This document shows, piece by piece, positions 6,346 through 26,833 of a DNA stretch of 29,709 nucleotides. The DNA is from a virus. Each line of letters begins with the position of its first letter. Position 1 is the first letter of the stretch. The DNA lies in the IMG/VR virus record IMGVR_UViG_3300037264_001851, positions 1-29,709 of that record, one strand, 5' to 3'. A model generated the notes under the pieces. The model saw only the letters and a program-made list of their open reading frames with translations, was not told where the DNA came from and ran no database searches. The position numbers and the translations under genes are program-made.

Positions 6346-6679
6346 TGCGACACCTCCGGCGGGCATACCGCCAAAAAAGACACCTGAATCTCTCTATCCA
6401 CAGATTGCACAAATTCCGCTGCGATTTCCGACTTCGCCCTCGCAGCCGATCACGACTCCGCGCCTCGAAGTCCCGATCCGGATCGGGACTGGGCGGTAAC
6501 ACTGGTTCCCGCGGTCGGACCGTGCGTTTGCCCATGTGCCCGACCTGCGCGTTGGACCCGATGCCCGCCCCGGTAAACCTTCACACAAGCAGGTCGGCCT
6601 GATGCGTTTGGCCACTCGCCCGACTTCGCCAGGCGAGTACCGTAGCCAAGCCGCATTCGGCCGGGGGTTGGACGATTGC
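6346..6679. repeat. compound repeat unit and two TTTGGCC-type elements
   Basis: It contains the third compound unit (6394-6500), in which the slot before GGGCGGTAAC is filled by the palindrome TCCCGATCCGGATCGGGA. A partial TTTG element follows (about 6515-6560), then a full TTTGGCC palindrome (6592-6664) with inner arms ACTCGCC/GGCGAGT. Confidence 0.8.
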
Positions 6680-7105: not shown

Positions 7106-7334
7106 TGCTATCTCCTTCTTGATTCGTAGGGGCGCACGCAAAGCGGCCACCGCCGCTGGCCCACGTGCGCCCTGTCGTTCCTCAGTTCCTCAGTTCGTAG
7201 GGGCGGATTGCATCCGCCCTGTAGTTCCGCAGTTCCGCACTTCGCACGTGGCGTCCGTGGCGCCGTGAGTCCGGCTGCGCTTCGCGGGCCACTTCCGGCG
7301 GCCTCCCGGACGGGCGAGAGATAAAGCCTTTCTC
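7106..7334. repeat. two GTAG hairpins and a GGGCGAGAGA element
   Basis: There is a third copy of the 47-base GTAG hairpin (7126-7172), a GTAG hairpin with arms GGGCGGAT/ATCCGCCC (7197-7219), and a GGGCGAGAGA-type element (7243-7334) with AGTCCGG near one end and CCCGGAC near the other. Confidence 0.85.
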
Positions 7335-7658: not shown

Positions 7659-7775
7659 CAGTTTCCCCTCTTCTGTTTTCAGTTGTCGGGCCGCGCGTTT
7701 GGCCCGATGCCCGACTTCGCCGGGCATCCGTCGCGGCCAATCCGCGCTCTCCCGGGGCGTTTCGCCGCAGGGCGG
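7659..7775. repeat. TTTGGCC palindrome
   Basis: Copy at 7683-7757: outer arms GCGCG/CGCGC, then TTTGGCC/GGCCAAT, and variable inner arms GATGCCCG/CGGGCATC. It is followed by a GCCGC/GCGGC hairpin (7764-7776) that touches the TAG stop of the gp10-like gene, whose context is GTAG. Confidence 0.85.
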
Positions 7776-9792: not shown

Positions 9793-10146
9793 CTATGCTC
9801 CCGTTTCTTTCGTATGAATCCTGAGACTCATAGAGAACCCATCCGTCCAGCGCCAGCAGTTCTCCGTCCCGAGGTTCATCACCTCGAATGTCCTCGCCCC
9901 GGAGATTATCTGGTCGCCCGCTACCGGCACGCCCAGCCCCGCGAGGTCCGCCGCGGTGACTATCCAGTCCTGCATTTCGGCTGCGACCCTCACTCCCTGT
10001 TCGTCGCCCGACTCGTATTCCGTCCGAGCCGCCGTCGCCGTGATCGACAGCGACGTGCCCCCGCGCGTGTAGGTCACGGCCGAGGCCATGTGGGCCTTGC
10101 GCTGGGCGTCGAGCCAGGCGACACCGGTTGCAAGTTGATCCGTCAC
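9793..10146 (-). CDS. head completion (head-tail joining) protein
   Basis: 117 residues from GTG 10146, with GGAGAGG about 8 bases upstream. It matches a recurrent phage family found after the capsid genes in lambda-portal phages: TGVAWLDAQRKAHMASAVTY at the N-terminus, a strand-rich middle with DWIVTAADL and GDQI, and a C-terminus reading WRWTDGFSMSLRIHTKETG. The family is generally unannotated, but its length and position fit the lambda FII slot at the head-tail joint. The family call is from memory of the pattern. Confidence 0.65.
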   Translation of the reverse strand: MTDQLATGVAWLDAQRKAHMASAVTYTRGGTSLSITATAARTEYESGDEQGVRVAAEMQDWIVTAADLAGLGVPVAGDQIISGARTFEVMNLGTENCWRWTDGFSMSLRIHTKETGA

Positions 10147-10394
10147 AGGCCATACCTCTCCGGCTGGCTACTGCCAGCCCCGCGTAGGGGCGCACGGCGT
10201 GCGCCCTCTTTGGTCGGCCTGATGCGTTTGGCCATTGCCCCGACTCGCGCCGGGGCACCACCTTAGCCAATCCGCATTCGGCCGGCGCCGGCAGTAGCCG
10301 GCGGAGGTCGGGCCGCGTGTTTGGTCACTCATCCGACAGTCGCCGGATGAGTAGCGAGACCAATCCACGCTTGCCCGGGCCCTTCCTGCCCGAA
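10147..10394. repeat. GTAG hairpin and two full TTTGGCC palindromes
   Basis: A GCTGGC/GCCAGC hairpin (about 10163-10178) leads into a GTAG hairpin (10184-10206). Palindromes follow at 10212-10290 (outer ATGCG/CGCAT, inner TGCCCC/GGGGCA) and 10306-10380 (outer GCGTG/CACGC, TTTGGTC paired with GACCAAT, inner ACTCATCCG/CGGATGAGT). The TTTGGTC/GACCAAT change is compensated on both arms. Confidence 0.88.
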
Positions 10395-11063
10395 CTAACT
10401 GGGCAGTAAGGGTACGCTATACCAGTCCGTCGCGTCGTAGGCGACGAACATCGCTATCGTCGAGGCCGCCATTGCCAACTGCCCGGTCGTGGCGGTCCCG
10501 CCGTTGATCTTGTCTCCCGTCGCCGGGAAGACGTTGAGCACGGCAGCGACTGAGTTCTTGATGACGCAGACCGCGCCCGCAACCGCCGTCGGCAGGGTCA
10601 CGGCCTTCGTAGCATCGGCGCCGGTGACCTTGCTGAACCCGATGGCTACCGGGCTGGCGCCCGAAGCCGCACCCGACGCGGCGACGAGCGCCGATGGCAT
10701 CGAGCCCCATCCGATGGCGCCCGAGGCATTCGCGGCCCCGGCCAGCGTGACCCTGACCGTGGTCCCGGTCGTGGCCGTCGACACGACCTTGCCGAGGTAT
10801 TCGTTGGAGCCTATGGTCGACGTCGCCACCTTCGCGGCGTCATCCCAGTAGGCGATTGCGCCCGCGGTGAGCCAGATATCCCCGGCCACCTTGGTGAAGT
10901 CGGCTACGCCCGTCACCTGGAGCGCGCCCTTGACTCCGGCCGCGATAGGCTCCGGCGCGACGCCGATTAAAGTGCCCTGCAGGATGACGTCGCCTGCGGC
11001 CACGGCCGCTACCGGCGTGTAGTCGATCATCACTCCGTCTTTTACCAAAAGCGCCTGTGTCAT
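10395..11063 (-). CDS. DUF2190-type capsid decoration protein, copy 3
   Basis: 222 residues from ATG 11063 with GGAGGA at 6-base spacing. The N-terminal half carries the DUF2190 pattern: DGVMIDYTPVAAVAAGDVI, LIGVAPEPIAAGVKG, VTGVADFTKVAG, IAYWDDAAKVAT and NEYLGKVVS. This family forms small beta-barrel caps on HK97-type capsids. The C-terminal half (about residues 120-222) adds a repeated-fold segment with CVIKNS, LNVFPATGDKINGG and MFVAYDATDWYSV. It is the last of three tandem paralogues. Its TAG stop lies in the loop of a CTGCCC/GGGCAG hairpin (10386-10406). Confidence 0.85.
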   Translation of the reverse strand: MTQALLVKDGVMIDYTPVAAVAAGDVILQGTLIGVAPEPIAAGVKGALQVTGVADFTKVAGDIWLTAGAIAYWDDAAKVATSTIGSNEYLGKVVSTATTGTTVRVTLAGAANASGAIGWGSMPSALVAASGAASGASPVAIGFSKVTGADATKAVTLPTAVAGAVCVIKNSVAAVLNVFPATGDKINGGTATTGQLAMAASTIAMFVAYDATDWYSVPLLPS

Positions 11064-11279
11064 ATCAAATCCTCCGTCTGCCGGCTACCGCCGGCCCCGC
11101 GCGAATGCGGATTGGCCAAGCTTATGCCGCCTTTGGGGCGACATGGCCAAACGCATCAGCGCGTCAACCTGTTCGTTTTTCAAAGCCGACCTCTGTCGGC
11201 GCCGTTTCATCTTTTGTCGGCCTGGTGCGTTTACCCGAGACGGGTAATCCGCACGCGGCCGGGTTGCGAGCTAACGCAG
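11064..11279. repeat. TTTGGCC palindrome and short TTTACCC variant
   Basis: A GCCGGC/GCCGGC-type hairpin lies near 11080-11096. A palindrome in reverse orientation follows (11098-11170) with inner arms pairing by one G-T wobble. A short variant (11215-11262) has TTTACCCGAGACGGGTAAT in place of the long core. Confidence 0.85.
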
Positions 11280-11291
11280 TTAGCTCGCAAC
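11263..11291 (-). terminator. 13-bp perfect inverted repeat containing a stop codon
   Basis: Arms 11263-11275 and 11279-11291 (GTTGCGAGCTAAC and its complement) have a 3-base loop. The TAA stop of the second decoration gene is inside the 5' arm. The equivalent repeat at 12154-12182 differs in two outer positions, and both are compensated in the opposite arm. Confidence 0.75.
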
Positions 11292-11945
11292 TAAGCCCAC
11301 CGAATACCAGTCGGTGCCGTCGTAGGCGACGAACATGACCGACGTCTGCGCGGCCAGGGCCAGAAACCCCGTCGTGTGGGTCTGGCCGTTGATCTTGTCC
11401 GCCGATGCGGGGAAGACATTGAGGATCGCCGCGGCCGAGTTTTTCACGATGCAGACGAGACCAGCCGCGGCCGCCGGCAGAGTGACCGCCTTCGTGTTGT
11501 CCGCGGCGGTGACCTTGGTGAATCCCACCGCTATCGGACTGTCGCCCGATCCGGTGCCCGAGGCGACGACCGTCGCCGAGTCGATCTTGGTCCACCCGAT
11601 GGCGCCGGCGGCGTTGGCTACGCCGGCCATGTCTATCCGCACCGTGGTCTCGGATGTCGTCCCGGTGACCACCTTGCCGAGAAAGACGTTGCCCGCGGCC
11701 GTCGTGGTGGCGATGCTCAGGCTCTCGTTCCAATAGGCGCGAACGCCAACGGCCATCGTGTCGCCGGTGAGCTTGGTGAAGTCCGCGACGCCCTCCACGA
11801 TAAGCGCGCCCTTCTCGCCGGCCGCGATAGGCGCCGGCGCGATGCCGATGACCGCTCCCTGCACGACGACGTCGCCGGCGGCCACAGCGCCCAGCGGCGC
11901 GTAGTCGAGGACCTTCCCGTCGCCTCGAAGTATTGCTTGCGTCAT
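11280..11945 (-). CDS. DUF2190-type capsid decoration protein, copy 2
   Basis: 221 residues from ATG 11945, with GGAGGAA 6 bases upstream. The longer frame to 11987 reads through a repeat. It has the same two-part layout as its neighbours: DGKVLDYAPLGAVAAGDVV, VIGIAPAPIAAGEKG, VEGVADFTKLTG, VFLGKVVTG, then CIVKNSAAAILNVFPASADK and MFVAYDGTDWYSVGLVAS. Among the three copies it is the most diverged in the first part, with a YWNESLS stretch where the others have YWDDAAK. It could occupy a different capsid site. Confidence 0.85.
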   Translation of the reverse strand: MTQAILRGDGKVLDYAPLGAVAAGDVVVQGAVIGIAPAPIAAGEKGALIVEGVADFTKLTGDTMAVGVRAYWNESLSIATTTAAGNVFLGKVVTGTTSETTVRIDMAGVANAAGAIGWTKIDSATVVASGTGSGDSPIAVGFTKVTAADNTKAVTLPAAAAGLVCIVKNSAAAILNVFPASADKINGQTHTTGFLALAAQTSVMFVAYDGTDWYSVGLVAS

Positions 11946-12170
11946 GTTTGGTTCCTCCATCTGCCGGCTACCGCCGGCACCGGACAAGCGCGGATAGGCC
12001 TCGATATCAGCCTGGCGTAGGTCAGGCTGATGGCCTAACGCGCGGTCCGTCCACTTGTTTGTTTTTCAAAGGCGGCTATCGCCGCCAGGTCCAACTTCTT
12101 TCAAGGTCGGCCTGGTGCGTTTACCCGAGGCGGGTAATCCGCACTCGGCCGATATCGCGAGCTAACACAG
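11946..12170. repeat. TTTGGCC palindrome in reverse orientation and short variant
   Basis: Hairpin GCCGGC-TACC-GCCGGC sits near 11963-11978. The palindrome at 11978-12053 has TAGGCC paired with GGCCTA and inner arms ATCAGCCTG/CAGGCTGAT. It is followed by the flank AACAAACAAGT, shared with 18598-18610. A short variant with TTTACCCGAGGCGGGTAAT is at 12108-12153. Confidence 0.85.
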
Positions 12171-12182
12171 TTAGCTCGCGAT
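12154..12182 (-). terminator. 13-bp perfect inverted repeat containing a stop codon
   Basis: Arms 12154-12166 and 12170-12182 (ATCGCGAGCTAAC and its complement) have an ACA/TGT loop. The TAA stop of the first decoration gene lies within one arm. Confidence 0.75.
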
Positions 12183-12839
12183 TAGGCTCACCGAATACCA
12201 CTCCGTGAAATCGAAGGCGACGAACATCGCCGCCGTGTAGTCCGCCATCAGGAGATAGCTCGTGGTGACGACCCCGCCGTTCATGCTGTCGCCGGTGGCC
12301 GGGAATACCTTGAGGTCCGCCGCCGCGTTGTTCTTGATGATGCAGGTGCGGCCCGGGGCCGCGGGCGGCAGCGTTACCGCCTTGACGTCATTGGCCGCCG
12401 TCGCCAGCGTGAACCCGAGGGCTACCGGGCTGGCGCCCGACGCCGTGCCAGAGGCGGCGACCGTCGCCGACGGGACCACGCCCGCGGTGACCACCGCGTT
12501 GACGACGGCCATGCTCCCCATCAGCACCTTGACGAGCACCTCAGTCGTCGTCCCGATGACGACCTTGCCCAAGTACTTGTTCGAGGCGGCCGTGGATGTC
12601 GCCACCTTCGCGGCATCGTCCCAATAGGCGATGGCCCCTACCGTCAGGCCGTTGTCGCCTGTGCCCTTGACGAACTCGGCGACCCCCGTCACCTGGAGCG
12701 AGCCCTTGACTCCGGCCGCGATAGGCTCCGGCGCGACGCCGATCATGAAACCCTGCAGGACGACGTCGCCGGCCGCTACGGCCGCCGAGGGCGTGTAGTC
12801 GATGCACCAACCGTCGCCTTTCACAAACGCCATTGCCAT
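12171..12839 (-). CDS. DUF2190-type capsid decoration protein, copy 1
   Basis: 222 residues from ATG 12839, with GGAGGA at 6-base spacing. A second ATG two codons on is possible. It shares with copies 2 and 3 the N-terminal decoration domain (YTPSAAVAAGDVVLQG, MIGVAPEPIAAGVKG, VTGVAEFVKGTG, KYLGKVVIG) and the C-terminal half (CIIKNNAAADLKVFPATGD, AMFVAFDFTEWYSVSLIAS). It is closer to copy 3 than to copy 2 in the first 90 residues. It directly follows the capsid gene, the usual position of a decoration gene. Confidence 0.85.
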   Translation of the reverse strand: MAMAFVKGDGWCIDYTPSAAVAAGDVVLQGFMIGVAPEPIAAGVKGSLQVTGVAEFVKGTGDNGLTVGAIAYWDDAAKVATSTAASNKYLGKVVIGTTTEVLVKVLMGSMAVVNAVVTAGVVPSATVAASGTASGASPVALGFTLATAANDVKAVTLPPAAPGRTCIIKNNAAADLKVFPATGDSMNGGVVTTSYLLMADYTAAMFVAFDFTEWYSVSLIAS

Positions 12840-13102
12840 AGTGGTTCCTCCGTAAAGATTACTGCTTCAGTAAACGCTTCTCGACCGCAGAGACGCGGAG
12901 TCGTCGTTTGGCTTCGAGCGTCTCGTTCTCTTTTGTTGCCTTCTCTGCGCACTCTGCGTCTCTAAGGCCAGCCTCTGGCCTGGGCGGTTAACCTCTTCTG
13001 TTTTCCTTTTCTTCCTTCTCGGACCGCGCGTTTGGCCTGCCATCCGCCTCACGACGGATGGCAGGCGTAGCCAATCCGCGCTTGTCCTAAGCGGCGTAGC
13101 CG
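12840..13102. repeat. GCAGAGACGCGGAG-type repeat and TTTGGCC palindrome
   Basis: At 12882-12990 an element related to the compound units contains ACTCTGCGTCTCTAAGG, an AGGCCAG/CTGGCCT hairpin and GGGCGGTTAACC. A palindrome follows at 13018-13090 with outer GCGCG/CGCGC and 9-bp inner arms TGCCATCCG/CGGATGGCA. An AGCGGC/GCCGCT hairpin (13090-13104) overlaps the capsid gene's stop. Confidence 0.85.
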
Positions 13103-15151
13103 CTAAGCATCACAGCTTACCGCGCCGCGGTAATCGACCTGGGCGACCCCGAAGTCGAAATAGCAGCGGATCTGCCAGCCGAGCATCGAGAACACGGCGT
13201 CGGCCGTCTCGACCGTCGGCTGCCTGCGGCCCTGCAGGAATGCGACCTGGACGGCGGGCAGGACGTTGGGGTCGGCGAGCATGTACCAGCCGGTCGCCGA
13301 GTAGCCGGTCATGGCCGAGAGCGCCATGTACGGCGAACTCACGACCTCGAAACGCCCCTTGTAGGGGTTGGCCGTGCCCTGTCCCGTGCTCGCTGACGTC
13401 ACGAGCTGGATGAACTCGGACACGTAGAGCGCGCGCGCCGTCGGCAGGAGCCCCGGCGGGACGAGGAGGTACTTCGGCATCGCGTACACCGGATCCCCGT
13501 CGCCGTCGACCATCTGGAGGAGACAGGCCTCGGCGGTGCCGAGCGTGGTGACCGAGAGCGCGCTCGACGTGAGCTTGTTCCCGCGGCCCGAGGTGTAGAA
13601 GACGTCGGACGCCTCCATCACCTTCCCGTAGAGGGCCTTCTCGACGGCGACTCTGGCCTTGCGCCCCTGCATGGCGTAGAGCTGCTGGAGCGCGTTCATG
13701 TCGTCGTTGATGATGGCCTGGCGGGTCAGCGTGAGCATGACGCCGCGGGTGGCCAACTTGTTCGTCGCCGTCGATTCGACGAGCTTGCCGGACTTGATCT
13801 CGCCCGTCGCCCCCACCTCTTCGAACCCGCCCGTCTGGTCGAGCTGATAGTTCGTGTAGGTGAGGAAGTTGTTGAAGTCCGCCTGCTGCGCGATCTTGTC
13901 GTAAGTGGCCTCGACCGCGGTGAAGGAATTGAGGAGCAGTTTGTTGCCTACCGTGCCGAGGATGCCCGGCAGGTCGACGGTCGACCATCCGGCCTTGAGT
14001 TGCTGGCCGACGACGGCTCGCCAGAGGTCCTCGCCGCCGTGCGGGGCGTGGACGCCCTCGGCCAAGAGGGCCGCGGCGAACATCGCGTGGAGCCCCATGT
14101 TCCGGCGTTTGTAGGCCGCCTGGGCGACGTCCGGCCCGAAATCGAGGTCCTTGGCGATGACCTCGTCCTTGACGTTGCAGGCCATGAGCATCGCCGCCGC
14201 CAGCACCTGGTCGGTCGGCTGGCTCCTGCGGTTCATGACCTCCGGCGCGCGCGCCCGCACGCGAAGGAGCGCGAGCTCGGTGTCGCGGATGGCCCAGTTG
14301 CCGGCGATGGCCTTCTCACCGACCGCCTTGATCTCCGGCAGGTTGGCGCCCGGGACCGTGGCGTACTTCGCGACGAGCTCGCGGATGCCGACGGTCCGAA
14401 GCTGCTCGGCCTCCGCCTGTGCGATGATCTCGTCGACCGAACCGGCTGTCGGAGGCTCAGGAGTCTCCTTCGTCCTCTTCTCGCTGTCGGCGGCCTTCTG
14501 CTCCGCGTCGTACTTGGCCTGGAGCATCGACTTTTGCTCCGGGCTCAAGGTCGCGGGGTCGAACCCGAGTCCTTTTACCCATGCTTCGAAATTCATGTCC
14601 ATATCTCCTTTGCTTGAGGTGGCGGCCCGGGCCGCGATCTTTGCCGATGCGGTCTCATCCGCGCCGACGCCGACAAATGAAACTTCGCCGAGCCGTCCGG
14701 CCCGGACTATCCCGATGGGCCCCTGAAAGGCGTGCCCGTTAACTCGTACCTTCCCCGCGGCCTCGACCCACTCGATGCGTTCGACCGTAACTCCGACGGA
14801 GGCGGGCCAGACGAAACCGTTTCTGGCGTGCATCACTACCTGGCAGGCCGGGTCGTTTTTGTCCTCGAGGTCGCCGGTGACCGTGCCGGTCACTGTGATA
14901 TTCGATCCGGTAATCGTCGCCTCGCCCTGGCCGACGATCTTTGCCGGGTCGTGGTCCTTCAGGATCGTGACCTTGCCCGCCCTGAGTCCCGCGAGATCGA
15001 CGACCATCGGCCGCATGAACCCGCCGACTCTGAGGAGCCCGCCGTTGTAGGCGTCTATCGTGAAGGTCGGCCGCTTCGCCGGTTCGCCCGCCGCGGCCTC
15101 GATGACGGATACGGCCGCTGACGCGGAGAGGATGAATTCGCTTGGCGGCAT
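13103..15151 (-). CDS. prohead protease / major capsid protein fusion
   Basis: 682 residues from ATG 15151, 19 bases after the portal stop. Residues 30-172 look like a capsid maturation protease: His67 in ILKDHDP, Ser118 in WPASVGV and a third element LGEVSFVGVGAD near 155-164, the H/S layout of prohead proteases. Residues 186-290 are charged and helical (scaffold-like delta region), with KYDAEQKAADSEKR. From about 300 to the end is a capsid domain of the Mu gpT-like kind seen in known protease-capsid fusions, with LYAMQGRKARVAVEKALYGK and YKGRFEVVSSPYM. The start has a poor ribosome site, whereas an internal ATG at 14596 has a strong one. Confidence 0.88.
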   Translation of the reverse strand: MPPSEFILSASAAVSVIEAAAGEPAKRPTFTIDAYNGGLLRVGGFMRPMVVDLAGLRAGKVTILKDHDPAKIVGQGEATITGSNITVTGTVTGDLEDKNDPACQVVMHARNGFVWPASVGVTVERIEWVEAAGKVRVNGHAFQGPIGIVRAGRLGEVSFVGVGADETASAKIAARAATSSKGDMDMNFEAWVKGLGFDPATLSPEQKSMLQAKYDAEQKAADSEKRTKETPEPPTAGSVDEIIAQAEAEQLRTVGIRELVAKYATVPGANLPEIKAVGEKAIAGNWAIRDTELALLRVRARAPEVMNRRSQPTDQVLAAAMLMACNVKDEVIAKDLDFGPDVAQAAYKRRNMGLHAMFAAALLAEGVHAPHGGEDLWRAVVGQQLKAGWSTVDLPGILGTVGNKLLLNSFTAVEATYDKIAQQADFNNFLTYTNYQLDQTGGFEEVGATGEIKSGKLVESTATNKLATRGVMLTLTRQAIINDDMNALQQLYAMQGRKARVAVEKALYGKVMEASDVFYTSGRGNKLTSSALSVTTLGTAEACLLQMVDGDGDPVYAMPKYLLVPPGLLPTARALYVSEFIQLVTSASTGQGTANPYKGRFEVVSSPYMALSAMTGYSATGWYMLADPNVLPAVQVAFLQGRRQPTVETADAVFSMLGWQIRCYFDFGVAQVDYRGAVSCDA
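14594..14609 (-). promoter_or_regulatory. strong internal ribosome site for capsid-only product
   Basis: Within the fusion gene the minus strand reads AAGGAG followed 8 bases later by ATG 14596 (an ATG 2 bases after the motif is too close). Translation from here would give a 497-residue protein beginning MNFEAWVKG, lacking the protease but with the whole helical and capsid parts. This is better than the ribosome site of the long form. Confidence 0.7.
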
Positions 15152-15170
15152 CGCGGCGGCGTTCAGTGTT

Positions 15171-16706
15171 CTATTCCTGGGCAACACGATTGACGCCCTC
15201 CTTTTTGGTGGCCTTGCCGTTGCCGTTATTGCCGGACTTGCGTCGGGACATGGGCTCTTCCTCGTCGTCGTCCTCGGCTGCGGGATCCGCCGGGGCCGGC
15301 GCGGGACGCTGGGGAGCGGCAAAGGGGTCGACGCCGTACTCCTTGGTGAATTCCTTTATGCGGCGCGCCTCCTCGAACAACTGGCGCGTCTCGTCCTCCC
15401 AGTCGAGTCCGAGCCTGCCGTACTCGCGCGACCTACTGGTCATCCCGTTCGTGAGCTTCGTGTCCTGCGCGGACGCCTCTTTGACGGGGTCCACGTGCTC
15501 GCGGCCGTCCCAGAACCACTGATGCGCGAGACCCGCCGCGGCGTCCCACCAGGCATACACGAGCGCGGCTTCGCGCGCCCATTCGGCGAACGTGGGATTC
15601 AGGTTGACGCGCTCGAGCGAGGACTGGTCAACGGAGATCGAGCGGAAGTAGCTTTGAAAGTCGAGGCGGCCCGAAGCGTAGTTGTAGTCCGAGGAATCGC
15701 CGGCGACGATGCAGTAGGGCATGTTGATGCAGCGGCCGATTTCCTTGAGAAATTCAGTTTTGCCCATGCCGTAGGTTGTGGACGGCTGCTCGGCCTTCAT
15801 CTGCGAGGGCACCCAGCCCTCGGGGGCGACGAGCATCATGTTCCGGGCAAACTCGATCTCGCTGAATGCCTCAACCTCGGCGGCGCTTCCAGCGCCCGGC
15901 ATGGTCGTCGACATGATGCCGGCGATATTGGCCCCGTTCTCGGCCGCGCCCAGCACGGCCAGGCCGTACCGCCTGAGCATCGCAAACAAGGGCATTGCCG
16001 GCATGATGTCGGGGAGTCCCCTGCGCTGCTCGGCGCGGTCGCGGCGGAACCAATGAATCATTCTGGAGGCGGGTACTTTGTCGTATTGCTGGCCGGGCTC
16101 AACGTAGTCGCCGCCCGGATGCGTTCGGAGCATGTGGTAGACCGTGGGGTTGCCGTAGGCGTCGAACTCGATACCGTCGACCGCGGCCTTCGAGGGCACG
16201 GTGGCGAGCTCGGGGCTCGTGATACGGTCCGCCTCGACGAGATTGGTATCGAGTTTCACAGGCGTGGGCAGTTCGGGATTGGTGACGAGTAGCGTGAAGT
16301 CCTCGCCGTCCTGGGCGCGGGCCTTGCGGCTGGTCCTCAGCTTCTCCGCCCACTGTATCGCATCGCACCAGATAGCATATTCTTTTTCGACCCGGCGGTT
16401 GAACTCCGTGTTGGCGGTGAGCATCTGTATGCGGGGCCCGGTGCCGATCGTGTCATTGGCGAGCGTCTCGACGACGCCGCGGGCATACGAGTTGTTGGCC
16501 ACCTCGTAGCGCGCGCGGTTTCTCAATATCTTGCGGACTGCGGGCGATGCGGAGGAATCAGCGGACAGTTGATCGGCGTTCGCCCAGTGCTTGCGGTTGT
16601 CGGCCGTCGTCTGCGCCGCGTCATAGCGCGCGCGAAGCGATATGGGCACGACCTGGCGGACAGGTGCAGCCTTTGCCTTTGTCGTAGTTATCCGCTTTTT
16701 CGCCAT
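15171..16706 (-). CDS. lambda-type portal protein
   Basis: 511 residues from ATG 16706. It matches the lambda gpB portal family (PF05136): a basic N-terminus, then YDAAQTTADNRKHWANAD, RNRARYEVANNSYARGVVETLANDTIGTG-like helices, VEADRI, GIEFDAYGNPTVYHM, RMIHWFRRDRAEQRRGLPDI and GDSSDYNYASGRLD, followed by an acidic tail. The length is normal. It forms the dodecameric DNA entry ring and is preceded by the gpW-like gene, as in lambda. The C-terminal stretch (EDDDEEEPMSRRKSG) is highly charged and probably disordered. Confidence 0.92.
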   Translation of the reverse strand: MAKKRITTTKAKAAPVRQVVPISLRARYDAAQTTADNRKHWANADQLSADSSASPAVRKILRNRARYEVANNSYARGVVETLANDTIGTGPRIQMLTANTEFNRRVEKEYAIWCDAIQWAEKLRTSRKARAQDGEDFTLLVTNPELPTPVKLDTNLVEADRITSPELATVPSKAAVDGIEFDAYGNPTVYHMLRTHPGGDYVEPGQQYDKVPASRMIHWFRRDRAEQRRGLPDIMPAMPLFAMLRRYGLAVLGAAENGANIAGIMSTTMPGAGSAAEVEAFSEIEFARNMMLVAPEGWVPSQMKAEQPSTTYGMGKTEFLKEIGRCINMPYCIVAGDSSDYNYASGRLDFQSYFRSISVDQSSLERVNLNPTFAEWAREAALVYAWWDAAAGLAHQWFWDGREHVDPVKEASAQDTKLTNGMTSRSREYGRLGLDWEDETRQLFEEARRIKEFTKEYGVDPFAAPQRPAPAPADPAAEDDDEEEPMSRRKSGNNGNGKATKKEGVNRVAQE

Positions 16707-17675: not shown

Positions 17676-17990
17676 TTCGACACCCTCCCGTAGGGGCGAC
17701 TGGCGGTCGCCCTCAGTTCCTCAGTTCCTCAGTTCTTCGGTTCTAACGTGGCGCTCGCGGCCGTTCGACGGGCTCACGGTGCTGAGCGTAGTCGAAGCAC
17801 GGCGTAAGTCCGGTGCGTTTCGCGGGCCGCTTCGGTCGGCCTCCCGGACGGGCGAGAGGCAATGGTTTCCTGTTCTGCTCTCTGCCCGCGCCCTCCCCAG
17901 AAGGTCGGACCGTGTGTTTGGCCCTGCGGCCGACTTCGCCCGCCGCAACGCTTGGCCAATCCACACTTGTCCGGGGCCGACGCAGTCGGC
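17676..17990. repeat. repeat-filled gap: GTAG hairpin, GGGCGAGAGA element, TTTGGCC palindrome
   Basis: GTAG hairpin with arms GGGCGAC/GTCGCCC (17690-17712), CCTCAGTT direct repeats (17713-17740), a TTCGACGGGCTCACGG element (17763-17800), a GGGCGAGAGA element (17803-17864) and a palindrome (17903-17976) with outer GTGTG/CACAC and inner TGCGGC/GCCGCA. A GGCCGAC/GTCGGCC hairpin (17975-17991) abuts the stop of the next gene. Confidence 0.85.
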
Positions 17991-18491
17991 CTATCGTTCT
18001 ATCGTCGGTTTTACCCGCCCGCACGTGACGCACGTCCTGTACCTCCTGATTGCCCCTTCCATGGGGTCGGTATCCCGCACATGCCATGAACTCCCACCGC
18101 AATACCCGCAGACTATGCCCCGCGCCGTCTCAGTCGACTTCCCGAGGTCGAGGCGCTCCGTCACCCGCGCCCCGCAGTTGTGGCACTCGAGGGACCGGGT
18201 CAGCGTAGAGCCGGTCTTCCGCGCCTCGATAAAGTCGAGGTGCCGGCAGCCGCACTTGCCGCATTCGAGGGCAGGGCGCCTGTCGGCCACAACGGTCGCC
18301 GCCGCCGAAGGCTCGACCGCGAGGGTTGCCGTCTTCTCCGGGCGGAGGACCGCCTCGGCGGGTGTCATCATCTTATCCCCCGCCTCAAAGGCGTCAACGA
18401 TAACGGCCGTCCCGTTCTCCCGGCCGTGGAGAGTCATCTCCGGCGCCGGCGGCGTCCGCGCCTTTCGCGGCTTGGCTTTCCCCTGCTTCAT
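17991..18491 (-). CDS. double zinc-ribbon protein
   Basis: 166 residues from ATG 18491 with AGGAG 6 bases upstream. The first 75 residues are basic then alanine-rich without recognisable motifs. The rest carries four CxxC knuckles: CGKCGC near 77, CHNCG near 103, CGYCGG near 127 and CVTCG near 153. Pairing 1 with 2 and 3 with 4 gives two zinc ribbons. Such proteins in phages usually bind DNA or RNA, possibly as late regulators or terminase partners, but no specific role is indicated. It lies directly after the large terminase. Confidence 0.7.
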   Translation of the reverse strand: MKQGKAKPRKARTPPAPEMTLHGRENGTAVIVDAFEAGDKMMTPAEAVLRPEKTATLAVEPSAAATVVADRRPALECGKCGCRHLDFIEARKTGSTLTRSLECHNCGARVTERLDLGKSTETARGIVCGYCGGSSWHVRDTDPMEGAIRRYRTCVTCGRVKPTIER

Positions 18492-18597
18492 GTTATCTCC
18501 TGTTCACGCAGGCTGGCCACTGCCAGCCCCGCGCAAGCGCGGATAGGCCGTGCTATTCGCCGGGCGCAGTCGGGCGAATGGCCTACCGCGCGGCGCG
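18492..18597. repeat. GCTGGC hairpin and TTTGGCC-type palindrome
   Basis: A GCTGGC/GCCAGC hairpin lies near 18509-18525. The palindrome at 18530-18602 (reverse orientation) has TAGGCC/GGCCTA and inner arms ATTCGCC/GGCGAAT. The flank that follows it, CAAACAAGTTGA, encodes the last residues and the stop of the large terminase. Confidence 0.85.
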
Positions 18598-20808
18598 TCA
18601 ACTTGTTTGTCTTCTCCGTATATCCGCCTGCGTGTATTTCTTCCTCGCCGGCTCGGTCTCGCCCTCGGCCTCCGCCGGGTGTCTTGCGCCCATCACCGAC
18701 GCGGCCGCGGCCGTCGATACGAGGCAGTCGAACCAGTGGTTGTCCTGCCTCTTCGGCATCTCCTTCCATACGTTGACGACCCGGCCGCGCCCCGCGGTCT
18801 CGACAAAATACTCCGAGCCCGCGACGTGCTCCGCCCAATGCGCGTGATCGTCCCGGGTCGCCGGCGATCCCCAGATAGTGAGCGCGCCGGGGTCGCCAAC
18901 CGAGGTCGCCAAGGCATTGTGGACGACCGTCTTCCACCAGTTCGTGTCTATCCGGAGGTGGGGGTATTCGCGCGTCCCCCTGACCGAGGGAATAAACCAG
19001 TTGTCGCCTATTACCCAGCCCGGACGCTTCTGGTATTCCGAGACCGGCTTTGCCATCGGCATTATCCCGATCCCGCGCGAGGCCTGGATGACGGGCGTCG
19101 CCAGCCGACGGCGCACCTGCTCGACGATCTTCGGCTTATACCCGGAGTCGACAAAGAGCTTCTCGACCTGAAAGGTCGCCGTCGAGCCCGAGAGCGTCCT
19201 CGGCCACTCGTGTTTCAGGAGCAGCGTCACGAGCCGTTCAAGCCCCTGGAGGATCACGCCCTCCTTACCCGCCCCCGGGAACTGGCGAGACATCGGACGC
19301 GGCGGGCTCGCCTGCTCAAACCACGCGCTCGGCTGCTCAGGGTACGTCCCGTAGTCGATGACCTGGCCGGTGAAATCCTCTTTCTTCCACGCGGCGACGA
19401 CCCAGTAGAGTATCTCGTCATGGACGTCGATTGCCCCGGTCACCATGTCGCATTCGGCGGGCACCCGGCCGCGCCCGAGCCCGCTCCACCGCTCGGCCAC
19501 CTGCGCCGGCGTCACCTTCGCCCCCCATTTCATCGACGGCAGAGGCGCCTGCTGCATCTCCGCCGCGAACGAGGTCGGGTTCTTTATCCACCGCCTCATC
19601 GCGTGTTCGATAGCCGACAGGTCGTCGGCGTATTTGCGGTGTAGCCAAGATACTATCGCCTCGGCGTCCATGCACCCGGGGCGCAGAGGGCACGTCCCGC
19701 ACGGGCGCCTCTCGTCGAGGATTGCGAGACATTCGGGCTTACACCTATGGGCCCCGTAGAGTGCCCGCGCCTCGTCGTCGCGGCGGTCCCGCATGAGTTC
19801 CGCGTATTTGTCCCACCAATCGCCGTGGGCGACGTCGGCCGGGGTCGCCGCGCGGTGTATTGGATAGGAGACGAGCATCGGCTGCCGCACGGCATTCCAC
19901 GCGGGGTCGCGGAGTATCTGATCAGCCATGTCGTTCTCGCGGATGACGGTCACGGCCATGAGCCCCGCTATCGGCTGTCCCGGCGGCCCCATCTCCATCA
20001 CCGCCCCTCCCGCCGCCAGGAGTGACACGCGCTCTGCCGTCTGGTATTCGCTCTTTGCCGATTCGTCCGTCTGCGGGTCGTCGATTAACGCGAGGTCCGG
20101 GCGGAGCTGCGTGCCGTCGGGCATCGCCCGCACCTGCCCGCGTATGCCCGCGCCGTCCAACCCCGTACAGGTCACGAGTGCCCCGGCCGCCGGCGACCCC
20201 GGGATGTCCGGGAGGGCGATCCGGTCCGCGTTCCAGACTATCCGGGTCGGCCGTCCGAGGCAGGTCTGTCCGCGCTGGCGGTTCGTTATTCGTTCGAGGC
20301 GTTGTATCGGGTAGACCGACTCGGGGAAATCTTGTGCGAGCAGCGGGTTCGTCTCGAGTATCATCTGGATATCGGCGATGATGGCCATCGCCTTGGGCAT
20401 TGTCGCGGCCAATACGCATACCCACCTGCGGTAGCCATAGAGGATGGCGTAGAGCGCCCCCGCTTTGATCAAGGAGCTCTTCGCGCCCGAGCGCGGCATG
20501 GCGACGGCAAATAGCCCGCCCTCGCGGACCGCCGCCCCGATTCTCTGCATCGTCGTCAACTGGTCCCGGGACCAGGGCCAGTGCTCGCCGGTCTTGGGCA
20601 CGGTGAAGAGTGGCGTGAGATACGTCTCGATAAAGCACCGGAGCGATTCGCCGGCACGCCGGCGCCGGTCGGGGTTGGCTATCGGGGGTATCCGTCCGAT
20701 GTCGCGGCCGAGGCTCGACTGCGAGGCCTCACGCGCCCGCGCGCGCTCCTTGCGCAGCTCGTACCCCGCGTCTCTCGCCGCCCTTCCCCGCGCAACCGCT
20801 ATGGCCAC
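18598..20808 (-). CDS. large terminase subunit
   Basis: 736 residues from GTG 20808 with GAGG close by. The ATPase half has an aromatic WPWSRDQL adenine-type motif (residues ~77-84), a variant Walker A at ~103-112 (MPRSGAKSSL, with Ala before the Lys) and Walker B LALIDDP at ~237-243 followed by QTDESAKS. The nuclease half has acidic residues in GAIDVHDE, FVDSGY (~550) and DNHWFDCL (~690). A Cys-rich insert at ~354-379 (CKPEC, CGTCPLRPGC) is unusual and could bind zinc. It packages DNA into proheads with the small subunit encoded upstream. The final QTS and stop are encoded by a dispersed repeat. Confidence 0.9.
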   Translation of the reverse strand: MAIAVARGRAARDAGYELRKERARAREASQSSLGRDIGRIPPIANPDRRRRAGESLRCFIETYLTPLFTVPKTGEHWPWSRDQLTTMQRIGAAVREGGLFAVAMPRSGAKSSLIKAGALYAILYGYRRWVCVLAATMPKAMAIIADIQMILETNPLLAQDFPESVYPIQRLERITNRQRGQTCLGRPTRIVWNADRIALPDIPGSPAAGALVTCTGLDGAGIRGQVRAMPDGTQLRPDLALIDDPQTDESAKSEYQTAERVSLLAAGGAVMEMGPPGQPIAGLMAVTVIRENDMADQILRDPAWNAVRQPMLVSYPIHRAATPADVAHGDWWDKYAELMRDRRDDEARALYGAHRCKPECLAILDERRPCGTCPLRPGCMDAEAIVSWLHRKYADDLSAIEHAMRRWIKNPTSFAAEMQQAPLPSMKWGAKVTPAQVAERWSGLGRGRVPAECDMVTGAIDVHDEILYWVVAAWKKEDFTGQVIDYGTYPEQPSAWFEQASPPRPMSRQFPGAGKEGVILQGLERLVTLLLKHEWPRTLSGSTATFQVEKLFVDSGYKPKIVEQVRRRLATPVIQASRGIGIMPMAKPVSEYQKRPGWVIGDNWFIPSVRGTREYPHLRIDTNWWKTVVHNALATSVGDPGALTIWGSPATRDDHAHWAEHVAGSEYFVETAGRGRVVNVWKEMPKRQDNHWFDCLVSTAAAASVMGARHPAEAEGETEPARKKYTQADIRRRQTS

Positions 20809-23330: not shown

Positions 23331-23984
23331 CTACGCCTCCTTCTCTGCCGTCGTCACCCACACCCACGGATTGTCGTCCCACGTGCTGCCGGACTTCGCG
23401 TTCGCGTCCCACGTGTCCGCGAACCACTCGTATGCCTGCGACGCATCCGCGTCAACCGAATGCGTCGCGGGAAAGCCCTCGGCAATCAGGTCGTCGATGC
23501 TGATGTTCTGCAACGGCTCCGCCCTGACCGCCGTCACGACGAGCCATATCCGCGCGGCCCACTTAGGCATCGTCGCGGGGGAACGCCACGGCCACTGGCA
23601 AGGACTCGTGATGATTGCCGCGTCGTGTTTGCCAGTAAACTGCCCATGTCGCACCTCGCGCATTTCCCCGTCGGCGCGATAGACGACCCAATCATCTGCG
23701 GTCTCATACCACGTCTCGCGCACGTAGATTCGGTCGCCGGGGGCGAAGGACTGCTTGATTAGCCCTCCATGTCGCGGGTCGGTTAGTACCATGTCCGGCA
23801 GATTGTCGTATGCTTTCTGCCCGTCAATCACGCCCTGCGTGATACTCTCTGCTATGGCGCAGGCTTGGCGACTCCGGTAACGCGGAACAGGCTGCGGCGT
23901 GATCGCCCGCCTGAACATGCTCTTCGTCCCGTCCTGTATCCGCCGCACGTCGTCTGCCCCGAAGATTACGCCCCGCTCGGTCAT
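23331..23984 (-). CDS. ASCH-like phage protein, paralogue A
   Basis: 217 residues from ATG 23984 with GGAGGAA 7 bases upstream. It has the layout of a widespread phage family I associate with ASCH-like folds: N-terminal TKSMFRRAITPQP, central GDRIYVRETWYE, then SPATMPKWAARIWLVVTAVRAEPLQNIS, DDLIAEGFP and terminal WDDNPWVWV. The family is thought to bind nucleic acid or a modified nucleotide, but its function is not established. It is a paralogue of 25914-26531, with very similar DNA in the C-terminal 100 codons and a different middle. Confidence 0.7.
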   Translation of the reverse strand: MTERGVIFGADDVRRIQDGTKSMFRRAITPQPVPRYRSRQACAIAESITQGVIDGQKAYDNLPDMVLTDPRHGGLIKQSFAPGDRIYVRETWYETADDWVVYRADGEMREVRHGQFTGKHDAAIITSPCQWPWRSPATMPKWAARIWLVVTAVRAEPLQNISIDDLIAEGFPATHSVDADASQAYEWFADTWDANAKSGSTWDDNPWVWVTTAEKEA

Positions 23985-24490
23985 CGGCACTTCCTCCATA
24001 CTTCCAGTGTCGCGTCGGCAGGAAGATATAGCGGGTGCTTTGGCGCTCCGCTTTTGTTCATGCCGAGGCACATAAACCCCTTCTCCTCAAACTCGCGCTG
24101 CCTGTCCCTGAACCGTCCGCCCTCGCCCCACGCGGCGACGATGGGGCATCCCAGTCTGACCGCCTCGGTCAGCCACATATCGTTGCACTGGCCGACCGGG
24201 TCGTCAGCCGCCATCATGTCGCGCGGGTTTGTCGCACGATAGGCGAAGAGGTTCAGCATCAGCACCGCGCCGAAATCCCACGCCCGCGAGAATCCGCAGA
24301 TGCGCCTGATAGTCGGGTCGTCCGCCGTCTCGTCAGCCGTCGAGGGATTGAGCCCTATCCAGACGATAGGCCGGAGCCGGGGTCCCACTTGCCGCGCCAC
24401 GACGTAGCGGTATCGCCTGTCCTGGTCAAATACCGCCCCTTGCGCCACGAGCGCAGGGATACTGGGCAAACTGATGCGTATCTCGCTCAC
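23981..24490 (-). CDS. DUF1643 family protein
   Basis: 169 residues from GTG 24490, whose GTGA overlaps the stop of the preceding gene. The hallmark WIGLNPSTADETADDPTI is at about 41-58, followed by FGAVLMLNLFAYRATNPRDM and PIVAAWGEGG, which together identify DUF1643 (PF07799). The biochemical role is unknown. Members are frequent in phages and plasmids near DNA modification or nucleotide metabolism genes. Length is typical. The next gene starts within its stop (ATGA). Confidence 0.87.
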   Translation of the reverse strand: MSEIRISLPSIPALVAQGAVFDQDRRYRYVVARQVGPRLRPIVWIGLNPSTADETADDPTIRRICGFSRAWDFGAVLMLNLFAYRATNPRDMMAADDPVGQCNDMWLTEAVRLGCPIVAAWGEGGRFRDRQREFEEKGFMCLGMNKSGAPKHPLYLPADATLEVWRKCR

Positions 24491-25605: not shown

Positions 25606-25917
25606 CTACTCCTCCTCTCTCGTCATTTCGCTGCCCGCGGAGGCACCGTCCGGCTGCGCCCGTATCATTTCCATCGCCGCCGCCAGCGCCTGCTGCGCCG
25701 CCTCGAGGTGGCGCAGGGTCCGCTTGTCGACCCCGCGCAGCCGATCCTTGAGCTGCTCGACCGGCGCCGGCCAGAGATGGAGCCTGATGCCGAGGGAGGC
25801 CAGCAGTTCCTGCACGTCCTTGAGTTTTTCGATCTCGTCCGCGAGTCGCAGATTCTCGCAAGACACTTTGCCGCGCGGGGACGATACTGGGCGCAATTCT
25901 GCGGGGGTCGTCCTCAT
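25606..25917 (-). CDS. hypothetical coiled-coil protein
   Basis: 103 residues from ATG 25917, whose ATGA overlaps the upstream stop. Longer frames to 26013 are shadows of that gene. Residues 22-45 (CENLRLADEIEKLKDVQELL) and 65-95 (VDKRTLRHLEAAQQALAAAMEMI) are heptad-like helices. No family recognised. The next gene starts 3 bases after its stop. Confidence 0.6.
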   Translation of the reverse strand: MRTTPAELRPVSSPRGKVSCENLRLADEIEKLKDVQELLASLGIRLHLWPAPVEQLKDRLRGVDKRTLRHLEAAQQALAAAMEMIRAQPDGASAGSEMTREEE

Positions 25918-26531
25918 GCCAGCACCTTCCCGAACGTCGTCACCCACACCCACGGATTGTCGTCCCACTTCTGGCCGGGCTTCGCCGTCGCGTCCCACTT
26001 GTCCGCGAACCACTCGTATGCCTGCGAGGCATCCTCGTCAACCGAATGAGTCGCGGGCCAGCCCTCGGCAATCAGGTCGTCGATGCTGATGTTCTGCAAC
26101 GGCTCGGCCCTGACCGCCGTCACGACGAGCCATATCCGCGCGGCCCAACGAGGCATCGTCGCGGGCGAACGCCAGCCACGTCCCCATTCGTGCCAGTTCA
26201 TTTCGTCCGCCGGGTCGAATTGGCTGCCGGCTCGGTGTCTCACGTAATGTCGCGCCCGTTCCGGCTCAGCGTTCCCGTCTATGTCCATGCGTCCAGCCCA
26301 CGTCTCGCGCACGTAGATGCGGTCGCCAGGACGCGGGCACCTATAGCAGAAGTTCCAGGGCTGTTTGCACATGAATTCTTCTGAGCCGCTGGACAGCATC
26401 CCGTAGACGAAGCGCCCGCCTATGTCACGTATCTCTGGCTGCGGCCGCATCGCCCGCCTGAACATGGTCTTGGTCCCGGCCTCTATCGCCCGCACGTCGT
26501 CCGCCCCGAAGATGATGCCCCGCTCAGTCAT
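25914..26531 (-). CDS. ASCH-like phage protein, paralogue B
   Basis: 205 residues from ATG 26531 with GGAG at 5-base spacing, overlapping the upstream stop. The motifs of paralogue A recur (GADDVRAIEAGTKTMFRRAM, GDRIYVRETWAG, SPATMPRWAARIWLVV, WDDNPWVWV). The middle differs: it carries CKQPWNFCYRCPRP near residues 60-75 and a second acidic loop, which suggests a changed specificity. The two copies are separated by eight short genes. Function of the family unknown. Confidence 0.7.
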   Translation of the reverse strand: MTERGIIFGADDVRAIEAGTKTMFRRAMRPQPEIRDIGGRFVYGMLSSGSEEFMCKQPWNFCYRCPRPGDRIYVRETWAGRMDIDGNAEPERARHYVRHRAGSQFDPADEMNWHEWGRGWRSPATMPRWAARIWLVVTAVRAEPLQNISIDDLIAEGWPATHSVDEDASQAYEWFADKWDATAKPGQKWDDNPWVWVTTFGKVLA

Positions 26532-26833
26532 GCGTTCTCCTTCCGCTCGCAGAATGCGTACTGCCCGCCGCGCCGCGTCCATTCCCAATGCACCATCCAC
26601 GGTATCGCGTTTGCCTGCATCGCCTCGATGAGCGATTCATTGCCCGACCAGCCTCCGGTGGCCAGTATCCACCAGCGATTTCCGTTCGCGGGATCGGCGA
26701 ACTCCTGCCAGCCCCACCCCGGCATCCACCAGAGCGAATGGACGAACTCCATCATGCCCGGCCAGTCAGTGAGCGGCCATGCCGCGATACGCTTCAACTC
26801 GTCATCGCGCGGGTAATCGCCTGTTTCGCTCAT
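26528..26833 (-). CDS. recurrent phage protein with TGGWSGNE motif
   Basis: 101 residues from ATG 26833 with GGAGG 7 bases upstream. It resembles a small phage protein I have seen repeatedly: an N-terminal RIAAWPLTDWPGMMEFVHSLW, a central WILATGGWSGNESLIEAMQAN and a terminal WEWTRRGGQYAF. Tryptophan-rich. No known function. Overlaps the next gene by ATGA. Confidence 0.7.
   Translation of the reverse strand: MSETGDYPRDDELKRIAAWPLTDWPGMMEFVHSLWWMPGWGWQEFADPANGNRWWILATGGWSGNESLIEAMQANAIPWMVHWEWTRRGGQYAFCERKENA

Follow-up and report, generated by a model that had tools for sequence, protein, structure and literature searches.

The closest described relatives of the proteins treated here are the cement proteins of the family PF09956 (DUF2190), among them gp48 of phiCD508, which is reported to form trimers and to be present in 420 copies per capsid (PMC11948020). 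gp48 has the fold of the N-terminal domain (base) of our proteins and its gene adjoins the capsid gene, as is the case here, whereas our locus holds three tandem paralogues rather than one, each with an additional C-terminal domain (tip); the phiCD508 chain is 125 residues long. The fold of the tip is that of the XD1 domain of CBA120 TSP4 and of T4 gp9; there it is joined to a tail baseplate protein and here to a capsid cement domain. XD1 is described as trimeric and apparently a spacer, its function not being fully understood, and T4 gp9, StcE and CpaA are named as its structural matches (PMC8825819); all three are also among the structural matches of our tip. Head fibres and capsid spikes, such as phi29 gp8.5 and the Pa223 spike, likewise have a cement-like base that bears another, exposed domain, but our proteins are without a long stalk, their structural matches to this group are weak and their layout is a predicted one. 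The locus also contains intergenic palindromes at gene ends, some of which supply stop codons. In this they are like the REP and REPIN-type repeats, palindromic repeats supplying stop codons that have also been reported from Planctomycetes (PMC3733652); they differ in being two-tiered elements of about 70 nt without a clear GTAG tag, counted as 11 copies in this virus record.

The locus was found in an IMG/VR virus sequence of 29,709 bases, which was analysed at its full length and is called the window. Three related, intact cement genes lie on its minus strand in the order C, B, A, flanked by the gene for a protease-capsid fusion on one side and by a head-tail joining gene on the other (Table 1), and the array thereby has the head-module position next to the major capsid gene that is usual for PF09956 cement genes. 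The three proteins score 60.6-65.2 bits with PF09956 (Phage_cement_2; Pfam cut-off 24), match phrog_122 (head decoration) and are 55-64% identical to one another; each ATG is preceded by GGAGGA at 6-7 nt. The open reading frames and the two profile matches bear out what the first-pass annotation had read from the letters, namely three paralogues of 221-222 residues after the capsid gene, each with its own GGAGGA. It had also called the second copy the outlier, which is correct for the cement domain, where B has a branch length of 0.77 vs 0.22 and 0.19 for the other two copies, but not for the C-terminal domain, where C is the divergent one (identity A/B 68%, A/C 59%, B/C 55%).

Table 1. Cement genes, neighbouring head genes, stop hairpins and two-tier hairpin elements (E1-E11) of the window; R1, covariance model of the elements.
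Feature	Position	Strand	Match or model
Cement gene copy C, first after capsid gene, 222 aa	12171..12839	-	PF09956 E 2.2e-16; two-domain model pLDDT 87.0
Cement gene copy B, 221 aa	11280..11945	-	PF09956 E 3.8e-17
Cement gene copy A, 222 aa	10395..11063	-	PF09956 E 7.8e-18; two-domain model pLDDT 87.6
Protease-major capsid fusion gene, upstream	13103..15322	-	PF25209 E 1e-35; phrog_4523 E 4.9e-69
Head-tail joining gene, downstream	9793..10146	-	PF25138 E 2e-32
Hairpin over stop of C, 13-bp arms	12154..12182	-	
Hairpin over stop of B, 13-bp arms	11263..11291	-	
Hairpin over stop of A, 6-bp arms, loop 9	10386..10406	-	
E1, after another gene's stop	6594..6664	+	R1 84.5 bits
E2, after another gene's stop	7686..7755	+	R1 83.4 bits
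E3, second after A	10214..10285	+	R1 78.2 bits
E4, after stop of A	10308..10378	+	R1 83.3 bits
E5, before start of A	11097..11164	-	R1 57.2 bits
E6, short form, after stop of B	11217..11262	+	R1 45.6 bits
E7, before start of B	11980..12050	-	R1 83.9 bits
E8, short form, after stop of C	12107..12152	+	R1 47.0 bits
E9, after capsid stop	13019..13089	+	R1 76.2 bits
E10, after another gene's stop	17905..17974	+	R1 84.6 bits
E11, before another gene's start	18529..18598	-	R1 82.9 bits

That phages usually carry one such gene, as had been assumed from the outset, was confirmed by counting. From the best 80 viral loci by capsid protein, a count was made of the 61 in which the sequence extends 3 kb or more beyond the capsid match: 59 have one cement gene, two have two (L105 and L118) and none has three. 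Since this search was seeded with the capsid protein, cement copy number does not bias the sample. In a second sample, which was fetched by the cement protein (84 records, 83 loci and the window), one cement domain was present in 76 records, two in four (L004, L054, L078 and L082), none in three, and three in the window alone. The putative link of the window to the Planctomycetota rests on the Pirellulales genome L086, the only match of a genome scan, and on portal matches at 20 places in 17 of 199 genomes of the same phylum, to which the portal search was confined. Among the matches listed for 392 genomes of this phylum, the family profile found 64 places in 32 genomes, with one adjacent pair (G358). 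Prophage stretches were fetched for 19 of the 20 portal places; 12 of the 19 have exactly one cement gene in the position between capsid and head-tail joining genes, in no case with a C-terminal domain match, and the other seven break off at a contig end or show no cement gene. No description of tandem paralogous cement genes was recognised in the literature searched, at the level of search listings.

A tree built from 14 full-length proteins joins A, B and C and the two copies of locus L004 in one group (support 100/100); the L004 copies pair together (98/98), and the branching order among A, B and C is not settled by this tree. The same five-row group was obtained (SH-aLRT 99) in a cement-domain tree of 109 rows, which has few columns for so many rows. 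A branching apart of the copies with other phages' genes, which the first-pass annotation had named as the sign of independent acquisition, was not observed. That this test can fail is evident from five other two-copy loci (L054, L078, L082, L105 and L118), in which each copy is closer in the cement-domain tree to other phages' genes than to its neighbour. The single clade, unlike these five loci, supports an origin of A, B and C by in-place multiplication of a cement gene, as judged from the sequences. A tree of the tips alone (21 rows) does not hold A, B and C together, their grouping not being rejected by an AU test (p 0.17), and it places the tips of L005/L011 in the set of the window tips (99/99). 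A one-to-one orthology of C with the first and of A with the second L004 copy was considered and dropped: in the tip DNA 15 sites speak for it, 7 for the reverse and 18 for pairing within each genome, and AU tests gave no decision.

All three copies have been maintained as proteins, as is indicated by dN/dS values of 0.35 for A/B, 0.43 for A/C and 0.51 for B/C at dS values of 0.74-0.84; for the tips within the window the ratio is 0.31-0.47, overall no faster than for the bases. Amino-acid sites uniting two of the three copies favour A/C over A/B in the base (24 vs 12) and A/B over A/C in the tip (22 vs 12), a contrast for which Fisher tests give p 0.016 (protein) and 0.026 (DNA) and a breakpoint permutation gives p about 0.001. 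A difference between base and tip is also found in L004, the two copies of which are 90% identical in base DNA and 68% in tip DNA. From both we infer that bases and tips have partly separate histories. Recent homogenisation in L004 blurs the timing of the duplication. In the same locus (L004, 5080-6663) a leader of about 100 nt is duplicated and lies ahead of both cement genes. Elsewhere in the window a paralogous pair of genes for unknown proteins (23331-24071 and 25914-26600, minus strand; protein identity 54%) is 91% identical in DNA over 250 nt of the 3' parts, a partial homogenisation that we liken to that of the L004 cement genes.

Single chains of A and C were modelled with AlphaFold2, and structural matches were computed for A. 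Both models (pLDDT in Table 1) have two confident beta domains with a hinge near residues 111-118 and the same strand order, and domain matches give the same two-domain layout in A, B and C. The predicted base of A matches the phiCD508 decoration protein (9gay_C) with Z 12.3 and rmsd 2.2 over 100 residues and a head protein of HFTV1 with Z 11.2; the match to lambda gpD is weak (Z 4.7), and that to phi29 gp8.5 has Z 4.8. The predicted tip (model residues 120-222) matches residues 78-185 of CBA120 TSP4 (7rej_B; XD1) with Z 10.0 and rmsd 2.5 over 92 residues, a Solidus tailspike with Z 11.2, T4 gp9 with Z 7.9 and a Pa223 capsid spike with Z 7.1. These are matches of fold and do not establish a function. 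On these models each copy would be a short spike anchored by a cement domain. In L010 and L028 the same tip follows a cement domain and a Gly-rich stalk, it occurs twice after one cement domain in L006, and in L007, L008 and L009 it is part of proteins in which the search found no cement domain. The genes in L010 (4879-6285) and L028 (3142-4257), with their long Gly-rich stretch between cement domain and XD1-like tip, are predicted to encode head fibres.

The gap between C and B and that between B and A align end to end with 169 of 205 bases identical (82%; z 19 vs shuffles), whereas the other five gap pairs, which involve the outer stretches ahead of C and beyond A, give z values of 0.9-3.4. 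The equal structure that had been ascribed to the gaps is therefore a property of these two and does not extend to the outer stretches. The further proposal, that the gene and its trailing palindrome had been duplicated as a unit, was not upheld: palindromes occupy much of the intergenic DNA (see below), the stretch after A is not homologous to the other two, and the gaps are 82% identical when fourfold codon sites between the genes are 53-59% identical. The gaps are thus younger than the genes, homogenised or more constrained, and one duplication of a gene plus palindrome is by itself insufficient.

A hairpin over the stop of every copy, as claimed initially, was verified at all three stops, each a perfect hairpin; that of A is weaker, and those of B and C have a loop of 3 and arms that differ between the two through paired changes. 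Beside these, the window harbors one family of two-tier hairpins of about 70 nt with 11 copies, two of them 46-nt short forms. In the alignment of the 11 copies, 13 of the 22 predicted pairs are kept despite changes on both sides. The covariance model R1 was built on the 11 copies and, by construction, finds all of them at E < 1e-7; its next match in the window (E 0.018) is one of the copies read on the reverse strand. Seven elements lie 13-20 nt past a stop codon in one orientation and three lie 33-37 nt ahead of a start codon in the opposite orientation, the eleventh being the second copy after A. When elements were placed at random in the same gaps, seven such copies after stops were obtained in 0 of 200,000 trials, a figure that is descriptive because the bins (10-22 and 30-40 nt) were chosen after the positions had been seen and two gap borders (E2, E11) were set by hand. 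The minus-strand gene at 17991-18491, which lies between E11 on its start side and E10 on its stop side, encodes an NrdR-like zinc ribbon (PF22811 E 2.7e-8).

Perfect hairpins with arms of at least 7 number 31 in 4,186 intergenic bp vs a shuffle mean of 2.0 (sd 1.2), an about 15-fold excess, and 20 in 17,407 coding bp; of the 21 stops, 8 are overlapped by a hairpin with arms of at least 6 (P 0.0006 relative to background coverage). The hairpins around the cement genes are part of a repeat family in its own right, which is spread over the record and is not specific to the triplication. A role of the stop hairpins as T-tract terminators was rejected, 5 terminator-like sites being found vs 2.7 in shuffles and none at the three stop hairpins, and Rfam gave no match at gathering score in the window. 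Two further kinds of repeat were observed: TCCACAGATTACACAGATT, found in either orientation at numerous intergenic sites (e.g. 1822, 5388, 8310, 20840, 27586 and 28944), and the GTAG-preceded palindromes CGTAGGGGCGCACGGCGTGCGCCC and GTAGGGGTCCCGATCCGGATCGGGA at 7194, 9131, 10181, 17278, 20872, 21399 and other positions, which resemble GTAG-tagged REPs.

Outside the window R1 found no match in the L086 genome or, with stricter filters, in 294 genomes of its phylum, nothing below E 0.2 in 45 viral loci and nothing below E 0.9 in the 19 prophage stretches. The exact-arm pattern matched a single viral contig (L087), where it falls within a coding frame, an 18-mer matched two (R1 E 0.21) and GTAGGGGTCCCGATCCGGATCGGGA none. 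As a host marker TCCACAGATTACACAGATTNCACAGATT was discarded as not diagnostic, since it occurs in 5 of the 294 genomes, with 39 copies in one; the same counts stand for a longer form of TCCACAGATTACACAGATT. The family of RAYT transposases (PF01797, Y1_Tnp) had no match in the record.

The explanation that we favour, and hold to be fairly probable, is an in-place multiplication, within one phage lineage, of what had been a single gene encoding a capsid decoration protein of two domains, giving three working copies and probably mixed spikes, with the hairpins as a separate family. By analogy with phiCD508 gp48, the N-terminal cement domain would most likely bind the capsid as a trimer and would present the XD1-like domain on the outside, as a short spike. 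Since all three copies have been kept as working proteins, the particle would probably carry a mixture of spikes, with base and tip domains partly reshuffled between the copies.

It is possible, though rather unlikely, that the three copies are interchangeable and raise the supply of decoration protein with no division of labour. The similarly strong ribosome-binding sites and the common two-domain layout are in line with such a dosage effect, but identities of just 55-64% and the dS values indicate a long time to keep three genes for supply alone, and base and tip diverge differently. That the genes came separately from other phages is hardly credible. The five two-copy loci named above are of this kind, and the L005/L011 tip falls into the set of the window tips, but the two cement trees join A, B and C with the L004 copies to the exclusion of all other rows. 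Equally, we find it very doubtful that the array is kept for reshuffling the exposed tips as a form of surface variation; the signs of mosaicism seen in both the window and L004 would fit, but the tips are under purifying selection and evolve overall no faster than the bases.

The hairpin elements could also have caused the multiplication, inverted elements bracketing genes as cassettes that were copied through them. Inverted elements flank A, B and the gene at 17991-18491, in each case one before the start and one after the stop, and the C-B and B-A gaps share element order and orientation. We nevertheless judge this improbable, as C lacks an element before its start, R1 found no element at E < 0.2 in L004 with its two tandem copies, and the record has no match to the Y1 transposase family. 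A more elaborate scheme appears no less improbable: the elements, compensatorily paired and with the palindromic side facing the gene, would punctuate genes, and as cassettes would have multiplied a capsid gene, the copies of which were then tuned separately to give a coat with three types of spike.

In-place multiplication into three working copies, our preferred explanation, is a departure from the rule, cement genes being almost always single in the sampled phages and the three copies being diverged and maintained. The hairpin family in fixed codon register is a separate lead, either to a repeat of the host or to an operon punctuation of the phage. A lineage with three cement genes that carry a domain of the tail-fibre type would allow a test of whether capsid spikes are mixed or site-specific.
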